Assembly: GCA_947643595.1 (NCBI GenBank) | Contig: CANRWP010000010.1 | Location: 1 to 64,000 of the forward strand | Direction: 5' to 3' | Length of the DNA: 64,000 nt | From: an uncultured bacterium | GTDB lineage: Bacteria > Bacillota > Clostridia > Lachnospirales > Lachnospiraceae | In this document: positions 9,824 through 48,572 of the stretch, piece by piece | Numbering within the stretch: position 1 is the stretch's first letter | Layout of the letters: the number at the start of each line of letters is the position of its first letter | Notes under the pieces: generated by a model | What the model saw: the letters and a program-made list of their open reading frames with translations, nothing else | What the model was told of the DNA's origin: nothing | The model's database searches: none | Program-made: the position numbers and the translations under genes

Positions 9824-9839
9824 AAGGGGGGAGGTCTCC

Positions 9840-21306: not shown

Positions 21307-21327
21307 AAATTAAGGAGAAAAGAAAAA

Positions 21328-22725: not shown

Positions 22726-22749
22726 AGTATATTATTAGGAGAGACTGCT

Positions 22750-24750
22750 ATGAAGGATTTATTGTTCGGAGCGGCATATTATCCGGAGTATATGCCTTAT
22801 GACAGACTGGAAAAAGACATGGAGATGATGAAGAAAGCGGGAATGAATACGCTGCGAATCGCGGAATCCACCTGGAGCAGTCTGGAACCCGAGGATGGAA
22901 AATTTGATTTTTCCTGTATTGACAGAGTTTTGGAGGCGGCGAAGAGGGAGGGAATGTCCGTGATCATAGGGACACCGACCTACGCGCTGCCCCCATGGCT
23001 TGTGAAAAAAGAGCCGGGAATCATGGTGGAGCGGAAATACGGACGGGCGCTTTACGGAGCGAGACAGCTTATGGATATTGTACACCCTGTATTCCGGTTT
23101 CACGCGGAGCGTATGATTCGGAAACTTGCCGCTCATACGGCGGGCCATAAGGCGGTTATTGGATTTCAGATAGACAATGAAACGAAACATTACGGAAATT
23201 ACGGCAGGTATGCACAGAAGCTGTTTGCGAAATATCTGCGGGAAAAGTTTGTGACAACAGACGCCCTCAATCGGGCGTTCTGTCTGAATTATTGGAGCAA
23301 TGCGGTTCACAGCTGGGAGGAGTTTCCTGATATCAGAGGGTGCTGTAATGCGGGGCTCGCATGTTATTATGAAACTTTTCTGCGCAGTCTTGTCGCAGAG
23401 TACCTGAAATGGCAGGCCGGGCTTGTGGGGGAATATAAGAAAGAGGATCAGTTTATCACCCACAATTTTGATTTTGAGTGGAAAAAATTCGGGGCGGATA
23501 TTGCTCAGGATGGATATTCGTATGGAATCCAGCCGGATATAAATCATGCGGAAGCCTCTGCGGTGGTGAGCATGGCCGGAACAGATATCTACCATCCGAC
23601 ACAGGATGAGCTGACAGGCGCGGAGATCGCCTTCGGCGGAGACGAGATCCGCTGTCTGAAACAGAATAATTATCTGGTGCTGGAAACGCAGGCGCAGGGA
23701 TTTAAAAACTGGACGCCTTATCCGGGACAGCTGCGGCTTCATGCCTACAGTCATCTGGCCGCCGGAGCAAACGGCCTGCTGTACTGGAACTGGCATTCCA
23801 TCCATAACGGATATGAAGCATACTGGATGGGACTGCTGGGACATGATCTGGAAGAAAATGAGACTTACCGCGAAGCCTGTCTGATCGGCGAGGAATGGCA
23901 GAGTATTGGAAAACGACTCTGTCATATGAAAAAGGAAAACAGGGTGGCTGTCGTGGTGGACAATAGTTCGCTGGATGCACTGAAATGGTATCCGGTGGAT
24001 AGAGATCTGAGTTATAATGATATTGTGCGCTGGGTATATGACAGCTTATATGAGTTGAATATAGAATGCGATATTGTGGATGTGAATGCGCTTGCGCCGG
24101 AGCGGTATCGGATGATCGTGACGCCTGCCCTCTACAGCGTTTCAAAAGAGACAGTGGAGGCGTTGGAAAAGTTTGTGCGGCAGGGAGGTGTGCTTGTCAG
24201 CACTTTCAGAAGTTTTGTGGCGGACAGGAATCTGAGTATCTATCCGGAGAGAAAGCCTTATGGGCTTTCGGAATGTTTTGGCATGATGTACCGGCAGTTC
24301 ACGGAGCCAGGCCGGGCCTCGGTGGAGGGAAAGAAAGTCCGATATTTCGCGGAGCTGCTGCAGGCGCAGAAAGCGGAGACACTGGCGTCTTATGAGCATA
24401 GATACTGGGGAAATTACAGCGCCGTGACAAAAAACAGATATGGGGAAGGTTTTGCATATTATGTGGGGACCTGTCTGGAAAAAGAGCAGTTAAAGAAATA
24501 TGTGCTTTTGGCGGCGGCGGATGCGGGAGTTGAGGTGCCGGAGGAGAGATGGCCGGTTATCATAAAAAACGGTACTGTCAATGACAGAAAGCTTCATTAT
24601 TTTTTGCATTACAGCGAGACGTACCGGGAGACCGTCTGCCCCTACGAAAAGGCAACGGAACTTTTTTCGGGAAAAATCTACCGAAAGGGGGAGAATATCC
24701 CGCTGAAGGACTGGGATGTAAAAATATTGGAGGAAAAAGAAAGGGAGTAA
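22750..24750 (+). CDS. GH42 beta-galactosidase
   Basis: GAAYYPEYMPYDRLEKDMEMMKKAGMNTLRIAESTWSSLEPEDGKFDFS, IGFQIDNETKHYG, trimerisation/beta-sandwich C-term. Confidence 0.92.
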   Translation: MKDLLFGAAYYPEYMPYDRLEKDMEMMKKAGMNTLRIAESTWSSLEPEDGKFDFSCIDRVLEAAKREGMSVIIGTPTYALPPWLVKKEPGIMVERKYGRALYGARQLMDIVHPVFRFHAERMIRKLAAHTAGHKAVIGFQIDNETKHYGNYGRYAQKLFAKYLREKFVTTDALNRAFCLNYWSNAVHSWEEFPDIRGCCNAGLACYYETFLRSLVAEYLKWQAGLVGEYKKEDQFITHNFDFEWKKFGADIAQDGYSYGIQPDINHAEASAVVSMAGTDIYHPTQDELTGAEIAFGGDEIRCLKQNNYLVLETQAQGFKNWTPYPGQLRLHAYSHLAAGANGLLYWNWHSIHNGYEAYWMGLLGHDLEENETYREACLIGEEWQSIGKRLCHMKKENRVAVVVDNSSLDALKWYPVDRDLSYNDIVRWVYDSLYELNIECDIVDVNALAPERYRMIVTPALYSVSKETVEALEKFVRQGGVLVSTFRSFVADRNLSIYPERKPYGLSECFGMMYRQFTEPGRASVEGKKVRYFAELLQAQKAETLASYEHRYWGNYSAVTKNRYGEGFAYYVGTCLEKEQLKKYVLLAAADAGVEVPEERWPVIIKNGTVNDRKLHYFLHYSETYRETVCPYEKATELFSGKIYRKGENIPLKDWDVKILEEKERE

Positions 24751-24754
24751 TATT

Positions 24755-26386
24755 ATGATCACAAATCCGATATTGCCGGGATTTAACCCGGATCCCTGTA
24801 TTTGCAGAAAAGGAGAGGACTATTATCTGGCGGTGTCCACTTTTGAATGGCTGCCGGGTATTCCGATCTATCATTCAAAAGATCTGAAAAACTGGGAGAT
24901 ATACAGTCATGTGTTCTCGGAGGGACACAGCATTGATCTGCGCAGACTTCCCTCCGCAAAAGGGATCTGGGCCCCCTGCCTGACTTATTGTGAGGAAGAG
25001 GATCTGTTTTATGTTGTCTACGGCGTGATGAATTCCATGAACGCAAGGTATTTTGATGTGGACAATTACCTGATTACGGCGAAAGATCTGCGGGGACCGT
25101 GGAGCGATCCGGTCTACCTGCATTCCGCCGGGTTTGATGCCTCTTTGCTTCATGACAGAGACGGAAGGAAGTATGTGGTTTCTCTTGACTGGGAAACAAG
25201 AGCGGGATATGAGAAGCCGGGCGTGATCTGCCTGGCGGAGTACGATCCGGAAAAGAAAGAGATTATCGGCTACCCGAAACGGATCTGGAAAGGCGGCACG
25301 GACAGAGGCTGTATCGAAGCGCCGCATTTGTACCGCAGAGGAGATTATTATTATATTATGTGCGCGGAAGGAGGCACCGGCTATAATCATTGTGTAACGA
25401 TGGGACGCGCGGAAAATATCTGGGGACCCTATGAGAGAGATCCGGAAAATCCTATCCTCACATCTGCGCCGGGAGATTCGAATGAACGTCGGGACCCGGA
25501 TCATCTGAAACCAAAATACTATAATCCAGATTGTGAACTGCAGAAGGCGGGACACGGGAGTGTGATCGACACCGGGAACGGAGAGACATGGATGGTGTAC
25601 CTCTGCGCGAGACCTTTTGTTCCGGAATTGTGCTGCACGATGGGGAGGGAGACAGCGATTCAGCGGATGAGATGGACGGAGGAGGGCTGGCTTCGCACCA
25701 TAGACGGTTGCAATCTGGCGAGACGGGAAGCGGGCGAAAGTGATCTGCCGGAATACCCGATGAAGAAGATTCCTTCTTTTGACGATTTTGACAGTCCGGA
25801 GATCGGGAACTGGTATTATGCGCCGCGGATCCTGCCGCAGACTTTTGTGGATCTGAAAGCGAGACCCGGCTACGCCAGGATCAGAGGACAGGAATCCCGG
25901 ACTTCACTAAACCAGGTCAGTATTCTGGCGAGGAAGCTGACATCCGTCCACGCGAGGATCACAACAAAAATGGAGTTTGTGCCTGAGGTGCATCAGCACA
26001 GCGCAGGGCTGATCATGTATTATGACAACATGAATTACATCAATCTGCGGAAATACTACAGCGAAACTTTAGGGCGGAGCGCCATCTCGGTAATTCACCT
26101 GGAAAACGGAGAAAAGACGGAATTTCTGAATACCCGAACCCCGGTGGAGGACTGTCCGATCTATTTCCGGCTGACGATCCAGGGCAGGGAATCGGTTTTT
26201 TCCTGGAGCTATGACGGAGAAAATTATCAGAGGATCGGCAGAGTATTCAACACATCCAAATTCTCGGACGAGTACTGCAAATACGGTGAGTTCACCGGAA
26301 CGATGGTGGGGATCACCTGTGCGGATAAGATGAAACGGCAGCATTACGCGGATTTTGACTTTTTTGAGTATGAGGAGGATTTTTAG
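24755..26386 (+). CDS. GH43 glycosidase (beta-xylosidase-like, with C-terminal beta-sandwich)
   Basis: NPILPGFNPDPCICRKGEDYYLAVSTFEWLPGIPIYHSKDLKNWE; DASLLHDRDGRKYVV; EAPHLYRRGDYYYIMCAEGGT. Confidence 0.93.
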   Translation: MITNPILPGFNPDPCICRKGEDYYLAVSTFEWLPGIPIYHSKDLKNWEIYSHVFSEGHSIDLRRLPSAKGIWAPCLTYCEEEDLFYVVYGVMNSMNARYFDVDNYLITAKDLRGPWSDPVYLHSAGFDASLLHDRDGRKYVVSLDWETRAGYEKPGVICLAEYDPEKKEIIGYPKRIWKGGTDRGCIEAPHLYRRGDYYYIMCAEGGTGYNHCVTMGRAENIWGPYERDPENPILTSAPGDSNERRDPDHLKPKYYNPDCELQKAGHGSVIDTGNGETWMVYLCARPFVPELCCTMGRETAIQRMRWTEEGWLRTIDGCNLARREAGESDLPEYPMKKIPSFDDFDSPEIGNWYYAPRILPQTFVDLKARPGYARIRGQESRTSLNQVSILARKLTSVHARITTKMEFVPEVHQHSAGLIMYYDNMNYINLRKYYSETLGRSAISVIHLENGEKTEFLNTRTPVEDCPIYFRLTIQGRESVFSWSYDGENYQRIGRVFNTSKFSDEYCKYGEFTGTMVGITCADKMKRQHYADFDFFEYEEDF

Positions 26387-27336: not shown

Positions 27337-27990
27337 TTATCGCCCCTGATGCCATGCCAGACGAACGCTGGCAGGGTGGTAATCTCCCGTAAGCCAGTCC
27401 ACATCGTTTGTGATCCAGTCCATGATCTCCAGCTGCCTGGTCTCCCAGGAGACGGTCGCCATATGGGCTTCGGGAGTTTCCTCCACTTCCATGGAAGTAT
27501 CGATCTCATCATAACCGAAGATATATCCGCCTGCGCTCCAGATGCTGAAATTGCTGTCCGGGCCGGGATCGGGAACGCCGCCCCTTTTTTCGACAAGTAC
27601 ATCATGGCGGGCTTTGTATTCCTCCTCGCATCCGGGCTTTAATTTTGTCATAAACATTCTGTGGCGTATCAGTTCTTTATTCTCTCTCACGATGCCGAAA
27701 TTATGATACATCAGACGCATATTCTGTCCGGGCGTGGAGATCCAGGTGAAAGTATCCTCCATTTTAGCGAGCAGTGAACCGATCTGCTCAACGGCTTTCG
27801 CGTACAGGTCTTTTTTTTCAGCTGTCTCGCAATAGCCGAAAATCAGGGAAGAACAGTTCCAGATACTGAAATTGCGCACTTCGTTCTGATCCAGAAATGC
27901 GACAAGTTCCGGCCAGATCTCCCCGAGATTTTTGCGGTAGAGATTCATCTGGCCTTTTTTAATTTCCATGGCGAAGCTGTGACGTTCCAT
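27337..27990 (-). CDS. Tandem two-domain L-rhamnose-mutarotase-like protein
   Basis: RHSFAMEIKKGQMNLYRKNLGEIWPELVAFL...NFSIWNCSSLIFGY and RHRMFMTKLKPGCEEEYKARHDVLVEKR...NFSIWSAGGYIFGYDE: two RhaM-like repeats in 217 aa. Confidence 0.75.
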   Translation of the reverse strand: MERHSFAMEIKKGQMNLYRKNLGEIWPELVAFLDQNEVRNFSIWNCSSLIFGYCETAEKKDLYAKAVEQIGSLLAKMEDTFTWISTPGQNMRLMYHNFGIVRENKELIRHRMFMTKLKPGCEEEYKARHDVLVEKRGGVPDPGPDSNFSIWSAGGYIFGYDEIDTSMEVEETPEAHMATVSWETRQLEIMDWITNDVDWLTGDYHPASVRLAWHQGR

Positions 27991-28216: not shown

Positions 28217-29767
28217 ATGTATACAATACTGATCGTGGACGATGAGCGGAATGAGCGGGACGGCATAGAAAAACTGATCAAAAGATACCAGTACGATCTG
28301 CGCGTTTTACAGGCGGCGAACGGCGAAGAAGCTTTGAAAATTTTTGAGGATCAGGAGATCGATATATTGCTCACAGACATAAAAATGCCCTTTATGACAG
28401 GAATGGAACTGATCGAGCAGGTACATAAGGGGGGCTGGGAACCTGTATGCATTATCTACAGCGCCTACGGAGAGTTTGAGTATGCCCAGAATGCGATTAT
28501 GCTGGGGGTACTCCAGTATCTTCTGAAACCGATCCGACTTGAGGAATTTCAGAAACTGTTTCGGAAAGTATTTAAGGTATGCGATGAGAGAAAGCGCGTA
28601 GAACAGGAAAATATCCAGATAAGAAAAAGACAGGAGCAGTCTGCGAGGGAGAAGGCGGGCAGGGAGATCATTCGCTATCTGGAATCCGAGACGGAAGATG
28701 AGGGCGGCGCCTTTATAGAAATTTTTGCGGGAAATGAAGTGTTCCCGGTGATACTTTCCAACAACCTGTACCTGTTTTCCAGACATTGGGACGAGTATTT
28801 CCATAAAATAAAAGAATTGTTTACGGAGAATGTCCTCGCGATAAGCAGGGACGATGCGCAGGTGCTTCTATTGATCCCTTCCACAGGAAAATTTCAGAAA
28901 AAGGAGATCCATGCGGCATGTCAGAGTCTGATTGAGATCTCGCGCGACAGATACCAGTCGGATCTCTTTATTATTGTCGGGCAGCAGTGCGCCGATGCAA
29001 AACAGTTAAGAGCCGAATATGAGAAGATGAAAGATCAGGTTGACTATCAGTTTTTTATTTCCGGGAGCAGATGCTTGACAGATGATCAGGGAGCCTTTCT
29101 GAAAAAGGAAAAGGATATGCTGCCAGTCTATTTCAAAAAGATCCTCACCTGCGTGAAACTGAAAGATTTTCAGGCGATGCGGGAGGAATTCGGAAAGGCT
29201 TTTGAGTATGTGGAGGAGAATGTGGGATTCAGCTCCATCTACATAAAATATAATTTTTCCGAGATCATCAAAAAGTGTTATGAATGCCTCGGAAAAGAAA
29301 ACAGGATGATGAAGAGTCTTGAGAATATTTATGAAGCCCGAACGCTGGAAAAGATCAAAGAGATCGTGGAAGAGATCATACAGGAATTTACCGGGGAGGA
29401 AAAGGAATCCGGATCGGAAAACAGGGTGGTGGGACTGACAATAGACATGATCAGACGGGAGTATGGAAACAGCACGCTTTCGGTGGCGCTGCTTGCGGAG
29501 AAGCTGGGGATATCGGCGGCCTATCTCAGTTCCCTGTTCAAGCTGGAAACGGGGGAGAATCTCGCCAAATATATATCCAGATACCGGATGGAAAAGGCAA
29601 AAGAGTTTTTGGATACAACCAATTTAAAAATAGGGGATATTGCGGAGCGTGTCGGATATTTTAACGTCTCTTATTTTATTTCACTGTTTCATATAAATGT
29701 GGGCTGCAGTCCCGCGAAGTACCGGGAGAAGATAAAAGAAAATGAACAGAGAGAAGAAATCCTTTGA
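28217..29767 (+). CDS. YesN-type response regulator (REC + AraC HTH)
   Basis: ILIVDDERNERDGIEKLI, ILLTDIKMPFMTG, C-terminal HTH STLSVALLAEKLGISAAYLSSLFKLETGENLAKYISRYRMEKAKEFL. Confidence 0.94.
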   Translation: MYTILIVDDERNERDGIEKLIKRYQYDLRVLQAANGEEALKIFEDQEIDILLTDIKMPFMTGMELIEQVHKGGWEPVCIIYSAYGEFEYAQNAIMLGVLQYLLKPIRLEEFQKLFRKVFKVCDERKRVEQENIQIRKRQEQSAREKAGREIIRYLESETEDEGGAFIEIFAGNEVFPVILSNNLYLFSRHWDEYFHKIKELFTENVLAISRDDAQVLLLIPSTGKFQKKEIHAACQSLIEISRDRYQSDLFIIVGQQCADAKQLRAEYEKMKDQVDYQFFISGSRCLTDDQGAFLKKEKDMLPVYFKKILTCVKLKDFQAMREEFGKAFEYVEENVGFSSIYIKYNFSEIIKKCYECLGKENRMMKSLENIYEARTLEKIKEIVEEIIQEFTGEEKESGSENRVVGLTIDMIRREYGNSTLSVALLAEKLGISAAYLSSLFKLETGENLAKYISRYRMEKAKEFLDTTNLKIGDIAERVGYFNVSYFISLFHINVGCSPAKYREKIKENEQREEIL

Positions 29768-31391
29768 GAGACAGCTGAAAAAGAGTTTTGTGCTGATCAT
29801 CATGATACCGGTACTCCTTTTGGGAACGTTTATCCTGTTTTCTTCTTTCAGATATGTGCAGAAGGAGAGGCTGGTGGAGCTGAACAACCGTATAGACCAG
29901 AATGAGATCGATCTGGAAAACAGGATGGAACAGAGCAAGAAATCTCTTGTCTATGCGGTCAGCAATTATACACTGCAGGATTTTCTGGAAATCGATACCG
30001 GAAATTTTATGAAATTGAATGAAGCTTCCAAAAATGTGAGTCCGTTGCTGTATAATACGGTACTCTCCAATCAATATTACAGGAAACTGAGGATCTATAC
30101 GGATAAAAATTATACGATGATGGACGACCTGCTCCGCTCCTCGGAGGAAGTACAGGGGGAAGCGTGGTATGCTGAGACCGGAGAGACGGACGAAATAGGA
30201 TGGTGGTTTCAGGGAGAGGAACTATTTATTACGAAACGGATCAGAACATCCTATCCGGTAAAAACGTTGGGGGTTATGAAAGTGGATCTGGATACGGATC
30301 TCTTTCGGGAGAGCTTCGGCGTTTTGGAAAAGGTGCCGTTATATGTCCGGATATTGGATCAGAACGGGACTGTCTATGAATATGGAAATGCAGAATACGC
30401 TCAGACAGCCGGGTTTGTCAGGACAGATCCGCTTGGAGATTCCGGGTGGAATATCCGGTATACGGTGGACAAAAGCTATTTCCATCAGGAGGTTGCAGGA
30501 CTGTTGCTGCCGATGTTGATCATCGCGGCGGTGCTCTGTATCGTCTGGATCTCCATACGCATGATCTCCAAAGTATTGTTGAGGGATATTGTTACTTTAG
30601 TACAGGAAGTAAATGAGATCCAGAGAGGGAACCTTGATGTGGAGATCAGGGAATCTGAGATAGAGGATGTGGATATTCTGGCGAGAAGTTTACAGAGCAT
30701 GATGAATCGGATCAAACAGCTGATACGGCAGGTATATGTAAAAGAGATCGAACGCCAGCATATGGAGCTGGATCTGTTGCAGGCAAAGATCAATCCGCAT
30801 TTTCTGTATAATAATCTGTCGGCAATCAACTGGCTGGCGCTTGACTGTGGCCAGGACAGGATATATGAGATCACCACAGAGATGGCCGCTTTTTATAGAA
30901 CGGCGTTAAATAAAGGAAAAAATATTGATAAACTTTCCGTGGAGATCATGAATATCCGAGCCTATGTCAGACTGCTTTCGATAGCGCATGAAGAGTCCTT
31001 TGATGTGGAATATCAGATAGATGAGAAACTGCTGGAATACAAAATTCCGATCTTTATCTTACAGCCACTGGTGGAGAACGCGATGGAGCATGGGATCGAT
31101 GAACTGCGGAATCGGAGGGGTTTTCTCAGGATCTCGGTTTATAAGGCAGATGAAAAATATATGGAGCTCTCTGTGTATGACAATGGGATGTCGCTGTATG
31201 AAAAGACAGGAGGAGGGGTAATGCCCGTTACAGATTACGGGTATGGAACGGGAAACGTGCATAAGCGGATACAGATTTTGTGTGGAGAGGATTGTGGCCT
31301 TACCATATCTGCGAATGAGACGGGCACGACTGCTGTCGTGAGACTGAAAGAAGTCAGAGCGGTAGAGATGCTGTCAGAAAAGGAATCCTGA
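29742..31391 (+). CDS. YesM-type sensor histidine kinase
   Basis: Two TMs, HAMP, QAKINPHFLYNNLSAINWLA (His_kinase), IPIFILQPLVENAMEHGI; overlaps yesN-like gene by 26 bp. Confidence 0.94.
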   Translation: MNREKKSFERQLKKSFVLIIMIPVLLLGTFILFSSFRYVQKERLVELNNRIDQNEIDLENRMEQSKKSLVYAVSNYTLQDFLEIDTGNFMKLNEASKNVSPLLYNTVLSNQYYRKLRIYTDKNYTMMDDLLRSSEEVQGEAWYAETGETDEIGWWFQGEELFITKRIRTSYPVKTLGVMKVDLDTDLFRESFGVLEKVPLYVRILDQNGTVYEYGNAEYAQTAGFVRTDPLGDSGWNIRYTVDKSYFHQEVAGLLLPMLIIAAVLCIVWISIRMISKVLLRDIVTLVQEVNEIQRGNLDVEIRESEIEDVDILARSLQSMMNRIKQLIRQVYVKEIERQHMELDLLQAKINPHFLYNNLSAINWLALDCGQDRIYEITTEMAAFYRTALNKGKNIDKLSVEIMNIRAYVRLLSIAHEESFDVEYQIDEKLLEYKIPIFILQPLVENAMEHGIDELRNRRGFLRISVYKADEKYMELSVYDNGMSLYEKTGGGVMPVTDYGYGTGNVHKRIQILCGEDCGLTISANETGTTAVVRLKEVRAVEMLSEKES

Positions 31392-31512
31392 GGGGGTTCT
31401 TTTTTTGAGTTAAAAAATCCGATATTTATATAAAAATTTTTGGATAGAATTTGAAATATACCGTATTTAAAATAAAGATATCACTAAAAAACATATGGAA
31501 AAGGAGAAGACT

Positions 31513-32853
31513 ATGAAAAAGAAAATCGTGAGTTTGTTGACGGCAGCAATCGTAACGGCATCCCTGATCGTGGGATGCGGCAATACAGCACAGGATTCGA
31601 CAGGCGGGGAGACGGCGTCCGCCTCTGAGACGGACGCGGCGGGGGAAACCGCTCCTGCGGAAAGCGAGAGTGAAGGATGGGGCGATGCGCAGAAAGTGAC
31701 TTTCGCGTGCTGGTATGATGAAGACGATATGGTTCCCATTATCGCGGCCATCAACGAGAAGCTGGGCGGGGAGTATGTAGTGGAATATACCTACATAGCG
31801 AGAAACGATTATAACAATGTGCTGGGAACGCAGCTGGCGGCAGGGGAAGGGCCGGACATCGTTGCGGATGGCACGAACTTCCCGGCGAGAATAAAGGCGG
31901 GAAATGTAAAGGAGATAACAGGGGCGGCTTACCTGAAGGGCATCAATGAAGCGGGATTTGCGCTCTGCAAGGATGGAGACAAAATATACGGCATTCCCTC
32001 CTACGGCTGGTTTTCCGGCGTGTGGTACAACAAAGACATCTTTGAGCAGAATAAGGTTGCCGTACCGACAACTTTTGATGAACTGGTAGCAGCCTGCGAT
32101 GCGTTGTCCGCAAACGGCGTGCAGCCGATGGGCTTTGGACTTGCTGACGGCGATACCGGCGTGCATTCTCTGCTGGGGTATATCGAGAACAATTTTTATG
32201 AGGCTTCCGAGGAGGGAAAGAGCTTTGACGAGGAGTTCGCAAAAGGCTTAAAGACAATGGACGGCACATTAAACCAGTATGTGAAAGAGTGGAGCGTGTT
32301 GGTCGAGAAAGGCTACATCAACGACACCATGGTGGGTATTTCCAATGAGCAGGCGTTGAGCGACTTTATTGCGGGTAAAACGGCGATCTTCAACGGCGGC
32401 CCTTGGCAGTATTCCAATCTCCAGGATGCGGGAATGAATTTCGGCATGATTCCAAATCTTGGAAGTTCCACAGAGAATCAGTACTTAAACGGCGGCCCTG
32501 CAGTAAACTTTGGCATCAATGTGAACACCAAAAACGAGAGCGGTGCGGAAAAGCTTATGGAAGCGCTTGCCTCTGTCGAAGTGCAGCAGGCTTTCGTAGA
32601 CGCAAATGTGGGCGGTTTCAGCTATAAGGAAGGCGTAAAGGTAGATATTCCGGATGAATATGAGGCGGTAAAGGATATTCTGGAAAACGGCAACGTTGCC
32701 TGCTGCTGGGACAGATGGAGCGTCAATATGCCGTCACAGTCCCTGTTCGACGAGGCGGTATCACAGATGCAGGGTCTTGCCGCAGGAAGCATCACGCCGG
32801 ATGATTTTGTGAAGGCGCTGGATGCAAAGGCTGAGTCCATCAGATACGAATAA
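31513..32853 (+). CDS. ABC sugar transporter substrate-binding lipoprotein
   Basis: MKKKIVSLLTAAIVTASLIVGCGNTAQ lipobox; SBP family 1 fold signatures; RBS just upstream of ATG 31513. Confidence 0.93.
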   Translation: MKKKIVSLLTAAIVTASLIVGCGNTAQDSTGGETASASETDAAGETAPAESESEGWGDAQKVTFACWYDEDDMVPIIAAINEKLGGEYVVEYTYIARNDYNNVLGTQLAAGEGPDIVADGTNFPARIKAGNVKEITGAAYLKGINEAGFALCKDGDKIYGIPSYGWFSGVWYNKDIFEQNKVAVPTTFDELVAACDALSANGVQPMGFGLADGDTGVHSLLGYIENNFYEASEEGKSFDEEFAKGLKTMDGTLNQYVKEWSVLVEKGYINDTMVGISNEQALSDFIAGKTAIFNGGPWQYSNLQDAGMNFGMIPNLGSSTENQYLNGGPAVNFGINVNTKNESGAEKLMEALASVEVQQAFVDANVGGFSYKEGVKVDIPDEYEAVKDILENGNVACCWDRWSVNMPSQSLFDEAVSQMQGLAAGSITPDDFVKALDAKAESIRYE

Positions 32854-32889
32854 GACAGAAAATAAGAAGTTGAAAAGACAGGAATGATT

Positions 32890-32920
32890 CATAAGGGGCT
32901 GCCGGAAACAGCCCCTTATG
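32890..32920 (+). other. Intercistronic hairpin without U-tract
   Basis: Perfect 12-bp stem CATAAGGGGCTG-CCGGAAA-CAGCCCCTTATG between SBP and permease genes. Confidence 0.85.
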
Positions 32921-32949
32921 TAAAATCAGAGATCAGAGGGGAACAGGTT

Positions 32950-33840
32950 ATGCAGAAAAAGACGAAACTGAAAAATGAACTTCCGTATATATTGATGGTC
33001 ATACCTGCATTGGCTATATTTATCACATTTTTTATTTTGCCGCTCATCTATACTTTTAAATATAGTTTTTACAACTGGACCAGCTATTCGCCGGATATTG
33101 TTTTTAAGGGACTGGAAAATTATAAGAAATTACTGGCGGACAGGACAGTGGTGGTAGGAATCAAAAATTCACTGATCTATGCCATTGTAAACGTACTGCT
33201 GCAGAATATTATCGCGCTGCCGGTGGCGGTAGTATTAAACACAAAATTCCGCGGGCGAAATATATACAGAGCGGTCTTCTTCTGCCCGGCGGTTCTGAGC
33301 ACGCTGGTAGTGGGCTATCTCTGGAAATTTCTGCTGTCCGCCAGCGATTACGGATTTGTGAACCAGTGTCTGGGGAGGCTTGGAGTGGAACCGGTCAACT
33401 TTCTGGGAAACGGGGAGATCGCGCTTGCGGCGATCATCCTGACGCAGGTCTGGCAGTGGTTCGGCTGGGCGATGGTCATTTATCTCGGAAATCTTCAGAG
33501 TATAAGCGACGATTTGTATGAGGCGGCATCCATCGACGGTGCGGGGATATTTGACAAATTCTGGCATATCACGATCCCCGGACTGGCGCCGGCGATCAAG
33601 ATCAATCTGGTGACGGGAATGATATCGGGATTGAAGGTATTTGATATTGTCATGTCTCTGACAAACGGTGGTCCGGCGCACCAGACGGAGACGATTCTGA
33701 CATTGATGTTCCAGAAATTTTCGGAGGGAAATTATGGCTATGCCTCTTCCTTCGGCATTGCGTTTCTGGCGATCAGTATGCTGCTTGCATGTATTTTATT
33801 AGGCTCTTTCAATAAATGGGAAAGGAGGCTCGGACAATGA
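32950..33840 (+). CDS. ABC sugar transporter permease (MalF/UgpA type)
   Basis: ATG 32950 MQKKTKLKNELPYILMVIPALAIF; EAA loop YEAASIDGAGIFDKFWHITIPGLAPAI. Confidence 0.93.
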   Translation: MQKKTKLKNELPYILMVIPALAIFITFFILPLIYTFKYSFYNWTSYSPDIVFKGLENYKKLLADRTVVVGIKNSLIYAIVNVLLQNIIALPVAVVLNTKFRGRNIYRAVFFCPAVLSTLVVGYLWKFLLSASDYGFVNQCLGRLGVEPVNFLGNGEIALAAIILTQVWQWFGWAMVIYLGNLQSISDDLYEAASIDGAGIFDKFWHITIPGLAPAIKINLVTGMISGLKVFDIVMSLTNGGPAHQTETILTLMFQKFSEGNYGYASSFGIAFLAISMLLACILLGSFNKWERRLGQ

Positions 33841-34670
33841 AAAAGAAGACGGTGTTTGTGACTGGTCTGAAATATGTTTTTCTGTCGCTGCTTGCGCTGG
33901 TTGTACTGATTCCGATCTATTATCTGGTCGTAACGACATTCAAGAGTTCTACGGAGGCGGCGGTTGCCCCGATGGCATTGCCCTCCTCATGGGATTTCAG
34001 CGGTTATGTGGATGCGTTTCAGGCGATGCAGTATCCGCAGGCGTTTAAGAATACATTTCTTATTACCTTCATCTCGGTGGCCGGGCTGATTCTGGTGTCG
34101 TCCATGTGCGGGTATGTGCTGAACAGAAGAGAAAAATTCAAAATTACAAAGGTGATCTTTCTTTTGATTTTATCTGGGATCATGTTTCCCTATCAGATGT
34201 CCATTCTGGGACTTTATAAGGTGATCAGAGGGCTGCATCTGATGAACTCCCTGACGGGCGTGATTCTGGTGGATATTGCGATCAATATTCCGTTTGCGAC
34301 ATTTTTGATCAAAAGCTTTGTCAGTACGATTCCGATAGAGCTGGAGGAAGCGGCTAAAATAGACGGAGCAGGCGTTTCCCGCACTTTCTGGACTATCACG
34401 TTTCCACTGATGAAACCGATGATTGCCACGGTTGCGATCCTGAACACGCTGACGATCTGGAATGATTTCATCGGGCCGTTATACTTTTTGCAGTCGAGGG
34501 AAAAGGACGTGATACTGCAGGAAGTATACAGGAATATCGGGCAGTTTTCCACGGACTGGAGCAGTCTGTTCCCGATGATGGTTTTAGGGGTGCTTCCGTT
34601 AGTATTATTCTATCTGTTCATGCAGAGATATATTATTGGAGGCGTGATGAGTGGTTCCGTAAAAGGGTAA
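33837..34670 (+). CDS. ABC sugar transporter permease (MalG/UgpE type)
   Basis: ATGA overlap with upstream stop; EAA loop LEEAAKIDGAGVSRTFWTITFPLMKP. Confidence 0.93.
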   Translation: MKKKTVFVTGLKYVFLSLLALVVLIPIYYLVVTTFKSSTEAAVAPMALPSSWDFSGYVDAFQAMQYPQAFKNTFLITFISVAGLILVSSMCGYVLNRREKFKITKVIFLLILSGIMFPYQMSILGLYKVIRGLHLMNSLTGVILVDIAINIPFATFLIKSFVSTIPIELEEAAKIDGAGVSRTFWTITFPLMKPMIATVAILNTLTIWNDFIGPLYFLQSREKDVILQEVYRNIGQFSTDWSSLFPMMVLGVLPLVLFYLFMQRYIIGGVMSGSVKG

Positions 34671-34690
34671 AATCAGCAGGGGGATGAAAT

Positions 34691-36613
34691 ATGAGTGCAG
34701 AGAAAAAACGGTATGAGTTTGTGATAAAAGAGGATTCGGAAAAAAGGCTGGATTTTCTGGGGAGCAAAGGCGATCCGGCAAAAATGAACTGGGTGCAGGG
34801 AAATCGGAAATGGGGCACGGTGATCTGCCCGGATACGCTTGCCGTAAAAACGGAAAGAGCGGTGACGGGAAGCGGCAGGCTGTATGAGAGTTACCGGTTT
34901 ACAAATATCACCGCTTTCCCTGTGGTTTTGCAGGAGACGGATGTGGGAATCTACGTCACCTTTCATGATAATTATGAGGCGGCTTCGGAATGTATGGAGA
35001 GAAGATGTCATACGCATCTTTTCTGCGGAGAGGAAGCCGCTTATATTCAGGCCTTTCGAATGGGAGGGCGTCCGCCGCACCTGGGACTGCAGCTGACGAA
35101 GGGGAGTGTCATCTCCTACAGTGTTGAGCGAGATGAAGAAAAAAGAAGCGATGACCGGGGAGACTTTATCCTGCATCCGTCTTTTCCGCTGATGGAGCCG
35201 GGGGAGACTGTGGAGATAGCATGGGAACTTTTCTGGTTTGAGGATCAGAAGGATTTTGAGGATCAGTTATCAGAGAAAGGCGAATTCCCGTTTGTCAAAG
35301 CAGAGAATGTGACTTTTTTCCCGGGGGAACAGATGAAATTTGAGGTCCATATACGTGAGAAGGCGGATGGGGCGGAAGTTTACGCGGAACATAACGGGGA
35401 GAAAATCCCCTGCCGGATACGGGTGGAGAAGGAGACGATTACGGCGAAAACAGCCGGGGACACACAGGAGGAAGGCGAATACAGATTCCATATAAACATT
35501 GACGGAAAAAAGACGTATGCCCTTCTGTATCAATGTGCGCATCTGGACAGAATGGTTCATAGGCGCTGCCGCTTTATTGCGGCAAAACAGCAGTATCTGA
35601 TGGATGGAAGCCCTTTGGACGGAGCCTATCTGATTTACGATAAGGAAGAGAACAGAATATATTACAGCCATCTGGACGATCACAACGGAGGGCGGGAACG
35701 CCTGGGAATGGGTGCGCTTGCCGCATTGTACCTTCAAAGAAATGAGGACAGAAAAGTATATGACAGCCTGATGCATTATCAGAGATATGTCTATCGGGAA
35801 CTGTATGACCGAAATTCAGGGACAGTGTACAATGATATCTGTCATAATAACGACTGGCACCGTCTGTATAATTATCCGTGGATGGCGGTATTCCAACTGG
35901 AAGTTTATCGGCTGACGAGGGATAGAAGCTGCCTGTCTGATGCATTTCAGACAATGTATCACTATTACCGGCTGGGAGGAGATAAGTTTTATGCGATCGG
36001 AATTCCGATGACGGAACTGCTCGATGAACTGGAGAAAGCGGAACTGCAAAAAGAGCGGGATTTATTAAAAGAGTGCTTTCTGAAACATGCGGATACGGTT
36101 TGGCAGACGGGGACAAATTATCCTGCATCGGAAGTTTCGTATGAGCAGAGTATTGTTGCGCCGGCGGTCAGTATTCTGTTGCAGGCGGAGAAAATAGAGG
36201 GAAAAGGAATCTATTTGAAAGAAGCTAAAAGACAGATGAAAGTGCTGGAATTATTCGGCGGGAGACAGCCGGATTATCACCTGTATGGTAACGCGGTCAG
36301 ACACTGGGACGGGTACTGGTTCGGGAAGAGGCGCATGTACGGAGATACATTTCCGCATTACTGGAGCGTACTGTCCGGCGTAGCCTATGCGCAGATGTAT
36401 GAAGTGACGGGGGAGGAAAATTATCGGCGAAAGGCGTCGTCGTCATTCAGGGGGTGCCTGAACCTGTTTGGCCGGGACGGATCCGCCTCCTGTGCCATGG
36501 TATTTCCAAAGTCGGTGAACGGGAGAGAGGCGGGTTACTATGATCCCTGGGCAAACGATCAGGACTGGGCCTTATATTATGCCTTAAAATACAGGGAGAT
36601 TACGGAGGGATAA
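34691..36613 (+). CDS. Cytoplasmic (alpha/alpha)-barrel-like putative glycosidase of unassigned family
   Basis: 640 aa; N-terminal beta-rich region then helical repeats (NDICHNNDWHRLYNYPWMAVFQLEVYRLT, HWDGYWFGKRRMYGDTFPHYWSVLSGVAYAQMYEVTGEENYRRKA); embedded in the carbohydrate operon; no signal peptide. Confidence 0.5.
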   Translation: MSAEKKRYEFVIKEDSEKRLDFLGSKGDPAKMNWVQGNRKWGTVICPDTLAVKTERAVTGSGRLYESYRFTNITAFPVVLQETDVGIYVTFHDNYEAASECMERRCHTHLFCGEEAAYIQAFRMGGRPPHLGLQLTKGSVISYSVERDEEKRSDDRGDFILHPSFPLMEPGETVEIAWELFWFEDQKDFEDQLSEKGEFPFVKAENVTFFPGEQMKFEVHIREKADGAEVYAEHNGEKIPCRIRVEKETITAKTAGDTQEEGEYRFHINIDGKKTYALLYQCAHLDRMVHRRCRFIAAKQQYLMDGSPLDGAYLIYDKEENRIYYSHLDDHNGGRERLGMGALAALYLQRNEDRKVYDSLMHYQRYVYRELYDRNSGTVYNDICHNNDWHRLYNYPWMAVFQLEVYRLTRDRSCLSDAFQTMYHYYRLGGDKFYAIGIPMTELLDELEKAELQKERDLLKECFLKHADTVWQTGTNYPASEVSYEQSIVAPAVSILLQAEKIEGKGIYLKEAKRQMKVLELFGGRQPDYHLYGNAVRHWDGYWFGKRRMYGDTFPHYWSVLSGVAYAQMYEVTGEENYRRKASSSFRGCLNLFGRDGSASCAMVFPKSVNGREAGYYDPWANDQDWALYYALKYREITEG

Positions 36614-36617
36614 GACT

Positions 36618-38819
36618 TTGTGTGCAGCTTGCAGAAAGGATGCGGTTATTGATATGAGAGGTGATTTTACGCTTCCGGGGGAATCCGGATATGAGAAGCT
36701 GACATTGGAGCTTGCCGAAAAATGGGGAGCCGATATGATCAGGGACAGCGACGGAACGAAATTGTCGGACGAACTTTTAAATGCCGGATACGGCATCTAT
36801 TCGACGGTCTGTGTGATCAGAGACCACAATGAGTGGGCGAAAAACAATCAGGACAAACTGCAGCAGACTTTCCTGATGGCAGGACCGGTTATGGCAGTGG
36901 AGCAGTCGGTGCGGATCGACCTGTTAAAAGAATATTTTGAAGAACAGTTTCGGATCAATGAGTCTCCGGAAAGTATAAAACTGTGGCAGGTTTTTGATCG
37001 GACAACGGAGGAGATTGTATCGGAAGATCAGTGGCGTTACGAGGCGGAACAGAAAACGGTGATGATTGAAGACTGCGTGCCCTGGCACAGCTACAGCGTG
37101 AATTTTCTGGCATACCGGATATGGGAAGAAATTTCCATGTACAACCATGTGACGAACGGATGGGAAAAAGAACATCTGATGCAGATCGATCCGCGCTATG
37201 AGGAAACGCAGCGTTATCTGCTCGACTGGATGAAAAAATGGTGCGAAGAACATCCGGCCACAAAGGTGGTTCGTTTTACGTCGATGTTTTATAATTTTGT
37301 CTGGATCTGGGGCAGCAGTGAAGAGCGCAGAAATATATTTACCGACTGGGGTTCCTATGATTTTACGGTAAGCCCTTATGCTCTGGCGCTTTTTGAAAAA
37401 AAATTCGGTTATAAATTGACGTCGGAGGATTTTGTCAATCAGGGTAAACTGCATGTGACGCATATGCCCTGCGATGGTAAAAAGAAAGATTGGATAGAGT
37501 TTGTCAATGACTTTGTGATAAATTTCGGAAAACAGCTGATAGAGATCGTACACAGCTTTGGAAAGCAGGCGTATGTTTTTTATGATGACAGCTGGGTGGG
37601 AGTTGAGCCCTATAATGGGAGATTTGAGGAGTTTGGATTTGATGGAATTATAAAATGTGTGTTTTCCGGATATGAGGTACGGATGTGTGCCGGCGTCCCG
37701 GTAAAGACTCATGAGATTCGCCTGCATCCCTATCTGTTCCCAACGGGTTTAGGCGGAGCGCCGACCTTTTCAGAGGGAGGGGATCCCACAGAGGATGCAA
37801 AAAATTACTGGCTTCATGTGCGCAGGGCTCTGCTGTGGCAGAAAATTGACCGGATAGGACTTGGTGGATATTTGCATCTGACGCAGGGGTATCCGGATTT
37901 CTGTGATTATATAGCACAGACTGCGGATGAGTTCCGAAAGATAAAAGAGCTTCATGCGCACGGAAAGCCACTCACGGCAAAAACAAGGGTGGCGGTTCTT
38001 CACAGCTGGGGAAGCATGCGTCCCTGGACGCTTTCAGGACATTTCCACGAAAGTGATGCACATGACCTGATCCACATCAACGAAGCTCTGGCAGGTATGC
38101 CGATAAAAGTTGACTTTTTGGACTTTGAAGATATCCGTGCGGGAAAATTGAAGGACTATGAGGTGTTGATCAACGCCGGAAGGAGCGGCGATGCCTGGAG
38201 TGGCGGGGCGGCATGGAAGGATGAGAAGATCGTATCGGAAATAACACGTTGGGCGTATGAAGGGGGAACTTTCATAGGAGTAAATGAACCATCTGCTGTT
38301 TCTGGCTTTGCTGCATTTTTCAGAATGGCGCATGTACTCGGGGTGGATATGGATAACGGGGACTATGTAAATCACGGAAAGTGGAAAGGAACCAAAAAAG
38401 AGGATACTTATTTTACAGAGGATAACATTTCGCTGTCCTGCAAAGAAGATATTTATGTCTGCTGCCGGGACACGGAAATTTTCTTAGAAGAGGATGGCTA
38501 TATAAAACTTTCCATGCACCAATTTGGCAAAGGAAAAGGCATCTATATGCCGGGATTCCGGTTTAGTGCAGAAAACAACAGATTGCTTTTAAAATTAATT
38601 TTATCATCGGGTAGAGAAACCTTAAAAGATTTGTATCAGGATGAAAATCCTTACATAGAAAGTGCATATTATCCAACGGATAAGATACGGATATTACTGA
38701 ACAATTCATCGAATGAACAAATAATTGCTAACTGCCCGGGAAAGAAAGGGAATATAATTTTAAAAGCATACGAGACGAAGATCATGGAAAATAATGTATC
38801 AGATGTTAAGCTATTATAG
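36618..38819 (+). CDS. GH112 phosphorylase (beta-1,3-galactosyl-N-acetylhexosamine phosphorylase or galactosyl-rhamnose phosphorylase)
   Basis: GDFTLPGESGYEKLTLELAEKWGADMIRDSDGTKLSDELL; FYDDSWVGVEPYNGRFEEFGFDGI; EGGDPTEDAKNYWLHVRRALLWQKIDRIGLGGYLHL; TTG start (or ATG 36654). Confidence 0.9.
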   Translation: MCAACRKDAVIDMRGDFTLPGESGYEKLTLELAEKWGADMIRDSDGTKLSDELLNAGYGIYSTVCVIRDHNEWAKNNQDKLQQTFLMAGPVMAVEQSVRIDLLKEYFEEQFRINESPESIKLWQVFDRTTEEIVSEDQWRYEAEQKTVMIEDCVPWHSYSVNFLAYRIWEEISMYNHVTNGWEKEHLMQIDPRYEETQRYLLDWMKKWCEEHPATKVVRFTSMFYNFVWIWGSSEERRNIFTDWGSYDFTVSPYALALFEKKFGYKLTSEDFVNQGKLHVTHMPCDGKKKDWIEFVNDFVINFGKQLIEIVHSFGKQAYVFYDDSWVGVEPYNGRFEEFGFDGIIKCVFSGYEVRMCAGVPVKTHEIRLHPYLFPTGLGGAPTFSEGGDPTEDAKNYWLHVRRALLWQKIDRIGLGGYLHLTQGYPDFCDYIAQTADEFRKIKELHAHGKPLTAKTRVAVLHSWGSMRPWTLSGHFHESDAHDLIHINEALAGMPIKVDFLDFEDIRAGKLKDYEVLINAGRSGDAWSGGAAWKDEKIVSEITRWAYEGGTFIGVNEPSAVSGFAAFFRMAHVLGVDMDNGDYVNHGKWKGTKKEDTYFTEDNISLSCKEDIYVCCRDTEIFLEEDGYIKLSMHQFGKGKGIYMPGFRFSAENNRLLLKLILSSGRETLKDLYQDENPYIESAYYPTDKIRILLNNSSNEQIIANCPGKKGNIILKAYETKIMENNVSDVKLL

Positions 38820-38850: not shown

Positions 38851-38891
38851 AGGCTTTACTATACTCTATCTTGTAGTAAGGCCTTTTTTTT
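38851..38891 (+). terminator. Rho-independent terminator after the GH112 operon
   Basis: AGGCTTTACTA...TAGTAAGGCCT + T8. Confidence 0.85.
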
Positions 38892-41428: not shown

Positions 41429-42604
41429 ATGGATCATGCAAAAGAATCCCTGCGTCTGCACAGAGAGTGGCAGGGAAAAATTGAAGTGATTTCACGAGTG
41501 CCGGTGTCTTCCGGGGAAGATTTGTCCCTCGCCTACACGCCTGGAGTGGCGCAACCCTGTCTGGAAATTCAGAAAGACGTAGATAAGAGCTACGAACTGA
41601 CGAGAAGACATAATATGTGCCTCGTGGTGACGGACGGTTCGGCGGTGCTGGGACTGGGAGACATCGGACCGGAGGCCGGAATGCCGGTGATGGAGGGGAA
41701 ATGTGTTCTGTTCAAAGCATTTGGCGATGTGGATGCTTTTCCGCTCTGTGTGAAAACGAAGGATGTGGATGAGTTTGTCAATGCGGTGTATCTGATATCG
41801 GGCAGTTTCGGCGGAGTAAATCTGGAGGATATTGCGGCTCCGAGATGCTTTGAGATAGAGAAAAAATTGAAAGAAAAATGTGACATCCCCATTTTCCATG
41901 ACGACCAGCACGGGACAGCAGTCATCACGCTGGCGGGCCTGATCAATGCGCTGAAGGTGACCGGAAAGAAAAGAGAGCAGGTGAAGATTGTCGTAAGCGG
42001 CGCCGGTGCGGCGGCGATCTCCATCACAAAATTATTGCTGTCGGACGGATTCCAGGATATTACTCTCTGCGACCGCAAAGGAGCTATTTATGATGGTCGT
42101 GAAGAGGGCATGAATAAAATAAAAGAGGAGATGGCCCTCGTCACAAACAGAGAAAAGCGCAGAGGGAATCTCAAAGATGTCATCGTCGGAGCGGATATCT
42201 TTATCGGGGTGAGTGCGCCGGGAATGATGACACCAGAGATGGTGCGGACTATGAATAAAGACGCGATCATCTTCGCATGCGCCAATCCGACGCCGGAGAT
42301 TTTCCCGGAGGATGCAAAGGCAGGCGGAGCCCGGATTTGTGCGACAGGGCGCAGCGATTATCCCAACCAGATCAACAACGTACTTGCCTTTCCGGGAATC
42401 TTTCGTGGGACATTCGACGTGAGGGCGAACGATATCAACGACGAGATGAAGATCGCGGCTGCCTATGCACTGGCGGGTCTGATCACGGATGAGGAGCTGA
42501 ACGAAGAGTATATTATCCCGAAAGCTTTTGACCCGCAAGTCGGTAAGGCCGTGGCAAAAGCTGTGGCGGAGGCAGCCCACAGGACCGGGACAGCCAGGAT
42601 CTGA
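41429..42604 (+). CDS. NAD(P)-dependent malic enzyme, short form
   Basis: LSLAYTPGVAQPCLEIQ, VTDGSAVLGLGDIGPEAGMPVMEGKCVLFKAF, PIFHDDQHGTAVI, ANPTPEIFPEDAKAGGARICATGRSDYPNQINNVLAFPGIFRG. Confidence 0.95.
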   Translation: MDHAKESLRLHREWQGKIEVISRVPVSSGEDLSLAYTPGVAQPCLEIQKDVDKSYELTRRHNMCLVVTDGSAVLGLGDIGPEAGMPVMEGKCVLFKAFGDVDAFPLCVKTKDVDEFVNAVYLISGSFGGVNLEDIAAPRCFEIEKKLKEKCDIPIFHDDQHGTAVITLAGLINALKVTGKKREQVKIVVSGAGAAAISITKLLLSDGFQDITLCDRKGAIYDGREEGMNKIKEEMALVTNREKRRGNLKDVIVGADIFIGVSAPGMMTPEMVRTMNKDAIIFACANPTPEIFPEDAKAGGARICATGRSDYPNQINNVLAFPGIFRGTFDVRANDINDEMKIAAAYALAGLITDEELNEEYIIPKAFDPQVGKAVAKAVAEAAHRTGTARI

Positions 42605-42640
42605 TAAAAATATTACATGCGAAGGAAGAGAGGTAGCGCT

Positions 42641-43738
42641 ATGGGTTACAGAAAATTTGACTATGAAAAATTGAGGATGCTGGCGGAACTTGTCTTTGAA
42701 AAACATGGCTATTCCCCGGAGGATGCGGGGATTATCACGGATGTGCTTCTGAAAGCGGATCTGATGGGAATAGAATCTCACGGCGTGCAGCGCCTGACTC
42801 TCTATCCCTTCGGCATCAGCATCGGCAGGATCAGGGTAGATGCAAAGCCGGAGATCGTTAAGGAGACACCCCTCTCGGCTGTGATAGACGCTCACGATGG
42901 CATGGGGCAGCTGGCCGGTGTGAAGGCGATGAACCTTACGATCGATAAGGCAAAACAACACGGAATGGGCTTTACCGTGGTGAGAAATTCAAACCATTAC
43001 GGTATCGCGGGCTACTATTCCCTGATGGCGGCACAGGAAGGTCTGGCAGGTATCTCCATGACCAACACGCAGGCCCTTGTCGTGCCGACTTTCGGCAGGA
43101 AACCGCTTTTGGGGACAAATCCGATTGCCTTCACGGTGCCGGCAAAGCCTTATCCCTTCCATCTCGATATGTCAACCAGTGTGGTGACGGCGGGAAAGAT
43201 GGAAGTGTATGCCAAGAACAAAAAGCCATGCCCGGAGGGCTGGCTGGTGGATGAGAACGGCGCGGTCAACACGGACGCGGGTGTGTTTGTGAAAAATCGG
43301 GGGACAGGGCTGGGAGGTCTGCTTCCGGTGGGCGGAGCGGGAGAACTCTACAGCGGACATAAAGGATATGGAATGTCCATGATGGTGGAGATCATGACCG
43401 GAATCTTTGCGGGCGGTGTGACCAGCTCCGGCGTGAGAGCCGTGCCGGAGAAGGAGCTCTGCTGTCATATGTTCTGGGCGATGGATCCGGGGATGTTCTG
43501 CGACGACAGGGAAGAACTTTTCGGGCAGCTGTCCGAATTTTTACAGATGCTGAGAAATTCGGATAAAGCGGAAGGACACGAGCGGATCTATACGCACGGA
43601 GAGAAAGAATTTGAAAATATGGAGAAGGTGAAAAACTCCGGCGTGTCGATGAACGATGCGACATATGAGGAGATTGTTAAGCTGAGCGAGAAAATTGGGA
43701 TTTGTGCGGAAGATTATCTGAAGGAGGTGAAAGCGTAA
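42641..43738 (+). CDS. LDH2/MDH2-family (malate/L-lactate/sulfolactate/ureidoglycolate-type) dehydrogenase
   Basis: ATG 42641; GIESHGVQRLTLYPF, VVRNSNHYGIAGYYSLMAAQEGLAGISMTNTQALVVPTFGRKPLLGTNPIAFTVP, GHKGYGMSMMVEIMTGIFAGG. Confidence 0.92.
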   Translation: MGYRKFDYEKLRMLAELVFEKHGYSPEDAGIITDVLLKADLMGIESHGVQRLTLYPFGISIGRIRVDAKPEIVKETPLSAVIDAHDGMGQLAGVKAMNLTIDKAKQHGMGFTVVRNSNHYGIAGYYSLMAAQEGLAGISMTNTQALVVPTFGRKPLLGTNPIAFTVPAKPYPFHLDMSTSVVTAGKMEVYAKNKKPCPEGWLVDENGAVNTDAGVFVKNRGTGLGGLLPVGGAGELYSGHKGYGMSMMVEIMTGIFAGGVTSSGVRAVPEKELCCHMFWAMDPGMFCDDREELFGQLSEFLQMLRNSDKAEGHERIYTHGEKEFENMEKVKNSGVSMNDATYEEIVKLSEKIGICAEDYLKEVKA

Positions 43739-43850
43739 AAAAATGAATTAGGGAAAAGCTTATACAGGAGGTGGTGCCGAAGAAGAAAAGTTATGATTTG
43801 AAGTTTTTCAGTTATTTAGAGAAGGCAATGAAACAGAAGGGAGCATTAGA

Positions 43851-44897
43851 ATGAATAAAAGAGAAAAAATAATGGTTGCTATATTGATGTCTATGATTAT
43901 GCTGGCGGGTTGCGGAAGTCAGGCAGTGGCTCCGGAGAATACAGTCGAGAGTACTCAGGAGGAGACAAAAGAAGATGAGAAAAATGATCCGGAGATTACA
44001 ATTACAGCTGTTACGGTATTTGACAGTGGTACGGCTATCGCACAGGGTATGGAAAAAATGAAGGAGCTTTTGGAGGAAAAGACAGATGGTAAAGTGACAA
44101 TGGAAATCTTTCCTTCCGGAACAACAGGAGGAGAAAAGGAACAGGCAGAAGCTCTTGTATTGGGAGAGGTTGATATGGCGGCATTCGGAACATTGCCCAT
44201 TTCCATATATGCGCCGGAATATTCTTTTTTCGATTCACCGTTTGTATTTCGTGACAGGGAACATTTTATGAATGTCTGGAACAGTGAACTGGGTGAGGGG
44301 ATGCGGGAATCCATGTTGGAGAATAACGGACTTAAGACGATAGGAGTTATGGGACGCGGATACAGGCATATTACCTCTAATACACCGATAAACAGCATTG
44401 ATGATATTGCAAAACTTACGATCAGGACGCCGGAATCCGCGTTGTTTACGGATACATTTGGAGCGCTTGGGGCAACCTGTGTACCTATCGCATTGACAGA
44501 ACTTTTTACATCTCTTCAGACAGGCGTAGTAAATGCATCGGAAGGACCCTTTGACCAGATCGTGACAAATAAGTTATATGAGGTACAGGATTATATTACT
44601 CTGTCTAAGTATTATTACTCGATTTCCATGTGGCAGATGAACGCTGACTTTTTTGATGAGCTCTCGGAGGAATATCAGAATGCCGTAATGGAAGCTGCGC
44701 AGGAAGCGACGGAATATGCGACTGCTCTCGGGGAGGAAAGTGAGGAAGAATTAAAGAAAGTATGTGAAGACGCGGGATGCACGATCTTGGAGATGGAAAA
44801 TATGACGCCGTATCTGGAAAAGGTGCAGAGTGTGATGGACAAGTTTTTTGAAGAAAAATGGCCGGTGACATCTGCAGAGGAGATAGCTTCATATTAA
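43851..44897 (+). CDS. TRAP transporter substrate-binding protein (DctP)
   Basis: Lipobox LAGCGSQ; EKTDGKVTMEIFPSGTTGGEKEQAEALVLGEVDMAAF; RTPESALFTDTFGALGATCVPIALTELFTSLQTGVVNASEGPF. Confidence 0.95.
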   Translation: MNKREKIMVAILMSMIMLAGCGSQAVAPENTVESTQEETKEDEKNDPEITITAVTVFDSGTAIAQGMEKMKELLEEKTDGKVTMEIFPSGTTGGEKEQAEALVLGEVDMAAFGTLPISIYAPEYSFFDSPFVFRDREHFMNVWNSELGEGMRESMLENNGLKTIGVMGRGYRHITSNTPINSIDDIAKLTIRTPESALFTDTFGALGATCVPIALTELFTSLQTGVVNASEGPFDQIVTNKLYEVQDYITLSKYYYSISMWQMNADFFDELSEEYQNAVMEAAQEATEYATALGEESEEELKKVCEDAGCTILEMENMTPYLEKVQSVMDKFFEEKWPVTSAEEIASY

Positions 44898-44915
44898 AGA
44901 GAACGGAGGGATACC

Positions 44916-46663: not shown

Positions 46664-46724
46664 ACATACAGCAAAGAGTTTCTGGTTGAGAGCCGAATGA
46701 CTGAAAAAAATAGGAGGTGAGATT

Positions 46725-47603: not shown

Positions 47604-47643
47604 GAAGAACAAAATAATGAAAAGAAAGAAAGAGGAGAATACC

Positions 47644-48564: not shown

Positions 48565-48572
48565 TTTTTATG

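Follow-up and report, generated by a model that had tools for sequence, protein, structure and literature searches.

Organization of the locus

The window, by which we mean the whole 64,000-nucleotide stretch analysed, from a Lachnospiraceae bacterium of gut type, contains at 28217-38819 (+) an operon whose genes all lie on one strand and in close order. It begins with a YesN-like response regulator carrying a receiver and an AraC-type DNA-binding domain (28217..29767, +; PF00072, PF12833), followed by a YesM-like sensor histidine kinase (29742..31391, +; PF06580, HAMP) whose gene overlaps that of the regulator by 26 bp. A sugar solute-binding lipoprotein (SBP; 31495..32853, +; PF13416/PF01547), with 3quf as its top PDB match (2.4e-36), is encoded ahead of two ABC sugar permeases, A (32884..33840, +) and B (33816..34670, +), which both match PF00528 and whose genes overlap by 25 bp; no ATPase gene for this importer is found within the operon. 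The last two genes encode a 640-aa homologue of PL27-family lyases (34691..36613, +), recognized with phmmer against PDB sequences (5no8/BACCELL_00875), and a GH112 phosphorylase (36618..38819, +; PF09508, 654.7 bits) that our tree places in a putative galactosyl-rhamnose-type clade. Only 4 bp separate them, and the Shine-Dalgarno-like GGAGGG of the GH112 gene lies inside the 3' end of the PL27 homologue gene. Further downstream, at 38851..38884 (+), an intrinsic terminator-like hairpin with a 13-bp stem, the longest among those listed in the hairpin scan, is followed by TTTTTTT. Pfam supports the family of every gene of the operon except the 640-aa protein. An earlier note on this DNA had described this gene set, its order and single direction, a sugar ABC importer lacking an ATPase and a strong terminator after the operon, and the Pfam matches, the ORF positions and the hairpin bear out this description, the gene coordinates included.

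Divergent from the operon, at 27337..27990 (-), lies a gene for a 217-aa protein made of two RhaM-like halves in tandem (PF05336, 2.4e-16, Pfam), which agrees with the rhamnose-mutarotase-like gene named in the same note. The His of YRKRHDEIWPEL (RHD motif) is a Leu in the first half, and RHD is kept in the second (EEYKARHD). PDB matches (2qlx, 2qlw, 6hhn) reach only residues 1-45. Because the protein scores far under the TIGR02625 cut-off (NCBIfam), we regard a mutarotase function as plausible but unproven. Relatives of this protein adjoin GH112 genes of the window's clade in two other loci (L101 and L102).

Other gene groups are found in the window. A GH5-like protein, a GPH-type transporter, GH42 and GH43 are encoded in a row at 20134-26386, beside a divergent AraC regulator at 18738-19952. 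The GH43 is nearest to beta-xylosidases (PDB), and both it and the GH42, which belong to this separate oligosaccharide gene group, were set aside as parts of the pathway discussed below. A putative organic or sugar acid gene group occupies 41429-49389, with a malic enzyme-like protein, an Ldh_2-family dehydrogenase, a three-gene TRAP transporter, two DHDPS-family genes (overlapping ORFs) and a GntR/FCD regulator. Finally, an Mrp/complex I-like antiporter subunit cluster (MnhB plus four Proton_antipo_M proteins) is found at 3971-11930.

The 640-aa protein is a homologue of PL27 lyases

The earlier note had left the 640-aa protein unassigned. Neither Pfam nor NCBIfam holds a useful model for it, and a weak match to DUF5695 (E=0.12) was discarded. 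Comparison with PDB sequences by phmmer does give it a family: residues 61-632 match BACCELL_00875 (PDB 5NO8/5nok) with E=2.7e-122, and the two proteins are about 40% identical over 561 aligned positions. PL27 enzymes consist of an N-terminal beta-sandwich and a C-terminal (alpha/alpha)6 barrel, and the three that have been characterised, BACCELL_00875 among them, free rhamnose from L-Rha-alpha-1,4-D-GlcA by beta-elimination, in all cases removing terminal unsubstituted Rha from GlcA (PMC8377490). The alignment to 5no8 covers chain residues 120-688, which should take in the whole barrel and the greater part of the beta-sandwich. When the window protein was aligned with seven Clostridia homologues and part of BACCELL_00875 (9 sequences), 91 columns were invariant, clustered in barrel motifs, and the motifs EV..EQSI, RHWDG.WFGK, GDT.PHYW and ANDQDW were nearly invariant across the Bacteroides and Clostridia homologues. 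Invariant Tyr residues are present in the barrel of these nine sequences; a tyrosine was reportedly proposed as the catalytic base in a 2017 paper on PL27. The assignment to PL27 is firm at the family level, with beta-elimination as the predicted activity. A protein on which standard family libraries are silent thereby gains a function that can be tested, and PL27 is extended from Bacteroides to Clostridia, where the gene contexts are varied.

It could be argued that the reaction or the substrate of the homologue has changed, and that the protein is, say, a hydrolase or else a lyase acting on the GalA of rhamnogalacturonan I without activity on GlcA. An identity of about 40% leaves room for such a change, chemistry varies among (alpha/alpha)6 enzymes, and GH28 genes neighbour the PL27 homologues of two other loci (L081/L082); the near invariance of the barrel motifs from Bacteroides to Clostridia nevertheless argues against a shift, which we judge unlikely.

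Inspection of the N terminus by eye revealed no obvious export signal, and the PL27 homologue, which has one copy in its own genome, is apparently cytoplasmic, acting after ABC import. Sequence identity and barrel motifs tie it to the known PL27 enzymes (BACCELL_00875, BT0263, BACFIN_07013). It differs from them in its apparent location in the cytoplasm, in following an ABC importer, in its GH112 neighbour, and in a substrate that may carry galactose on the rhamnose.

The GH112 enzyme lies apart from the galacto-/lacto-N-biose phosphorylase clade

The listed start of the GH112 gene is a TTG at 36618, behind GGAGGG, which gives a protein of 733 aa; an alternative ATG at 36654 gives about 721 aa and agrees better with where the homologues start. 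Of the Lact_bio_phlase TIM barrel, central and C-terminal domains, PF09508 and PF17385 (240.6 bits) are above their cut-offs and PF17386 is just under its own (23.7 bits against 26.6). The protein matches the Bifidobacterium galacto-/lacto-N-biose (GNB/LNB) phosphorylase BlGLNBP (2zus/3wfz) with an E value of about 1e-142 among PDB sequences. Among the checks on its specificity suggested in the earlier note were phylogenetic placement and inspection of the residues at the HexNAc-binding site, and both set the window enzyme apart from BlGLNBP. We built a tree of 88 sequences, which come almost entirely from the order and include no characterised Gal-Rha phosphorylase; here the window GH112 belongs to a 43-member clade (support 1.0) separate from the clade of BlGLNBP. 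A scan of named genomes for GH112 relatives found four, none of them a characterised Gal-Rha phosphorylase. The window enzyme shares R32, N166 and D313 with BlGLNBP, Asp313 being the catalytic acid; LGDQW of BlGLNBP aligns with YDDSW of the window enzyme, and the D is present in every row of the tree. P161, V162 and S336 of BlGLNBP, presumably positions on the acceptor-binding side, are replaced by E, I and C in the window enzyme and almost always so throughout its clade, which also has a longer loop (HPYLFPTGLGG.. vs LPYFFPDTF).

The two clades also differ in gene context. We built profiles from the neighbourhoods and ran them on the fetched flanks of 42 loci of the window clade and 21 of the other clade. 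GH105-type hydrolases (PF07470) were found at 28 of the 42 window-clade loci and at none of the 21 GNB/LNB-clade loci (p=8.8e-8), whereas NahK was found at none of the former and at 11 of the latter (p=5.7e-7), the p values being a guide only since the loci are related by descent. GDSL esterases (11 vs 0) and GH28 (4 vs 0) were likewise confined to the window clade. One locus (L101) has in a single run GH105, a GDSL esterase, GH112, a RhaM homologue, KduI, KduD, a PfkB-type kinase (KdgK) and a KDPG-type aldolase; another (L102) has GH105, GH112, a tandem RhaM and GH28; in a third (L006) RhaA adjoins GH112. The layout of Butyrivibrio hungatei, where a GH105 (349 aa) directly precedes a GH112 (722 aa) annotated by the authors as a Gal-Rha phosphorylase (PMC5716241), matches that of L008 and its relatives.

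The own genome encodes a second GH112 (C5:68909-70207; L004), 34% identical to that of the window, which falls in the BlGLNBP clade; an APH/NahK-like kinase adjoins it and a GH42-like beta-galactosidase is near, suggesting that this locus is likely a separate galacto-/lacto-N-biose pathway. At C23 of this genome, RhaA (rhamnose isomerase) is encoded next to a rhamnulokinase-type FGGY kinase.

The tree, the acceptor-side residues and the conserved context all favour the window GH112 as a D-Gal-beta-1,4-L-Rha phosphorylase. We infer this strongly from the distribution of GH105 and NahK and from the presence of RhaM, RhaA, GH28, KduI or KduD in some loci, short of proof because the tree held no characterised enzyme of this kind. 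The same evidence strengthens the preference for galactosyl-rhamnose expressed in the earlier note, within that limit of the tree. That the window enzyme is instead a GNB/LNB phosphorylase we consider highly improbable: the NCBIfam equivalog model for that activity, TIGR02336, does score it at 641 (cut-off 560.3), but the enzyme lies outside the BlGLNBP clade, NahK accompanies only the other clade, and a GNB/LNB-clade copy beside an APH/NahK-like kinase is already present in the genome. TIGR02336 apparently does not separate the two GH112 clades, and would probably misname the window enzyme and its clade. Compared with the known GNB/LNB pathway (GH112, NahK, GalT and GalE), the window operon shares the GH112 family and the phosphorolytic logic; it differs in the lack of NahK, in the acceptor-side residues and in having the GNB/LNB role assigned to a separate copy.

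Clostridium phytofermentans and Opitutus terrae already provide known cases of Gal-beta-1,4-Rha phosphorolysis, which is thought to serve the use of rhamnogalacturonan I (RG-I) (PMC8950772), so the candidate new phosphorolysis pathway of the earlier note is an overstatement. The window enzyme resembles those systems (Cphy_1920, Oter_1377) in its GH112 fold, in a clade apart from GNB/LNB enzymes and in an RG-I-type gene link, and differs in being paired with PL27 instead of GH105. It is this pairing of PL27 with GH112 that is new, both kinds of enzyme being known; a literature search for a rhamnose-glucuronate lyase together with a phosphorylase returned nothing relevant.

PL27 homologues are rare and the sensor-importer-PL27 module occurs without GH112

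Genomes with a PL27 homologue number 6 among 392 sampled from the order, 8 among 397 from the family and 15 among 388 from the class; these samples overlap, and every count takes in the genome of the window as well as a small number of weak matches. Among about 20 PL27 neighbourhoods, several of them on short contigs, PL27 adjoins GH112 only in the window. In four other genomes PL27 is present together with a GH112 that scores in the range of the window enzyme, the two genes lying apart. At the genome level PL27 was associated with the GH112 clade of the window (3/5 vs 41/387 by hand count in the order sample, p=0.01); this association was not used as evidence, since a single genus accounts for two of the three genomes. 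One PL27 homologue (G024; L083:15675-17550) lies in two reading frames, being either a decaying gene or a sequencing error.

In one genome (G569; L122) the regulator, kinase, SBP, two permeases and PL27 are found in the same order, with identities to the window proteins of 47%, 42%, 53%, 67% (permease A), 75% (permease B) and 57%, respectively, and a ribose-type ABC transporter, a PfkB kinase and a DeoC aldolase follow PL27. Since this module stands without GH112, the conserved unit is the sensor-importer-PL27 set, to which GH112 is best regarded as having been added in the lineage of the window (or from which it was lost in that of L122). Elsewhere, PL27 homologues adjoin two GH28 genes (L081) or one (L082), a hint of rhamnogalacturonan, and in L149 a fucose-isomerase-like protein and an FGGY kinase, a hint of deoxy sugar release.

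A possible lyase-phosphorolysis route

We consider it reasonably probable that the operon is a unit for sensing, importing and catabolising a plant-type rhamnose/uronate oligosaccharide with beta-1,4-linked galactose, in which PL27 and GH112 act on one substrate. Gene order, the PL27 and GH112 homologies, the GH112 clade and RhaA in the genome can be read directly from the sequences; the enzyme activities, the acceptance of a galactosylated rhamnose by PL27 and the sharing of a substrate are inferred. In such a unit, the YesM/YesN pair would sense the oligosaccharide, and the SBP and permeases would take it up with the help of a shared ATPase whose gene lies elsewhere. The cytoplasmic PL27-type enzyme would then beta-eliminate the L-Rha-alpha-1,4-uronate bond, yielding (Gal-beta-1,4-)Rha and a 4,5-unsaturated uronate end, GH112 would convert Gal-beta-1,4-L-Rha into alpha-Gal-1-P and L-rhamnose, and the RhaM-like protein, with RhaA/RhaB from elsewhere in the genome, would process the rhamnose. 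The uronic acid could be the GalA of RG-I or GlcA as in arabinogalactan. The PL27 homology, the clade and gene context of the window GH112, the rhamnose isomerase and kinase genes of the own genome, the GH28 genes beside PL27 in two other genomes and the recurrence of the two-component system-ABC-PL27 module in L122 speak for this reading as a whole; against it stands the restriction of the PL27-GH112 adjacency to the window among the PL27 neighbourhoods seen.

In GH105 loci, the likely route, which follows established pathway logic, is that unsaturated GalA is removed from the product of RG-lyase, leaving Gal-Rha. Since no match to GH88/GH105 (PF07470) was found in the own genome, an absence that is weak at 87% completeness, another enzyme must free Gal-Rha, and PL27 may stand in for GH105. 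Because the known PL27 reaction cuts Rha-alpha-1,4-uronate, such an enzyme could detach Gal-Rha, by its reducing end, from an oligosaccharide that has Gal-Rha-uronate at the non-reducing end. We therefore advance, as a tentative proposal with less than an even chance of being right, that PL27 cuts Gal-beta-1,4-Rha-alpha-1,4-uronate in the cell and hands Gal-Rha to GH112, in a lyase-phosphorolysis route that replaces GH105 and possibly operates on RG-I (GalA). If true, this would be a second route by which Gal-Rha becomes available for phosphorolysis, with galactose recovered as Gal-1-P and no ATP spent. Against the hand-off, the substrate of the PL27 enzymes known so far is Rha that is unsubstituted and bound to GlcA, and activity on galactosylated rhamnose is not reported in the literature examined; against GalA in the substrate, this sugar differs from GlcA at C4 and would need a different elimination stereochemistry.

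The specificity of the characterised PL27 enzymes (PMC8377490) would suit an operon whose two enzymes share a regulon and work on separate substrate ends, PL27 removing unsubstituted terminal rhamnose of the arabinogalactan or gum type (Rha-alpha-1,4-GlcA) and GH112 phosphorolysing Gal-Rha imported as such. The L122 module without GH112 and the varied contexts of Clostridia PL27 homologues are consistent with this arrangement. It is nevertheless rather unlikely, as the two genes lie 4 bp apart, the genome has no detected GH105 to make Gal-Rha, and enzymes of arabinogalactan type are absent from the flanks of the operon, where the nearest GH43 resembles beta-xylosidases.

A further point against the proposed one-substrate pathway is that it leaves the fate of the unsaturated uronate unexplained, KduI not being found in the own genome (a weak absence, again, at 87% completeness). 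In the closest sister loci of the window GH112 (L099, L100, L103 and L107), which have no GH105, an RpiB-like isomerase (LacAB_rpiB + DUF3666) adjoins GH112. The RpiB-type isomerase DhuI can replace KduI, and the isomerase of these sister loci may thus bear on the missing uronate step.
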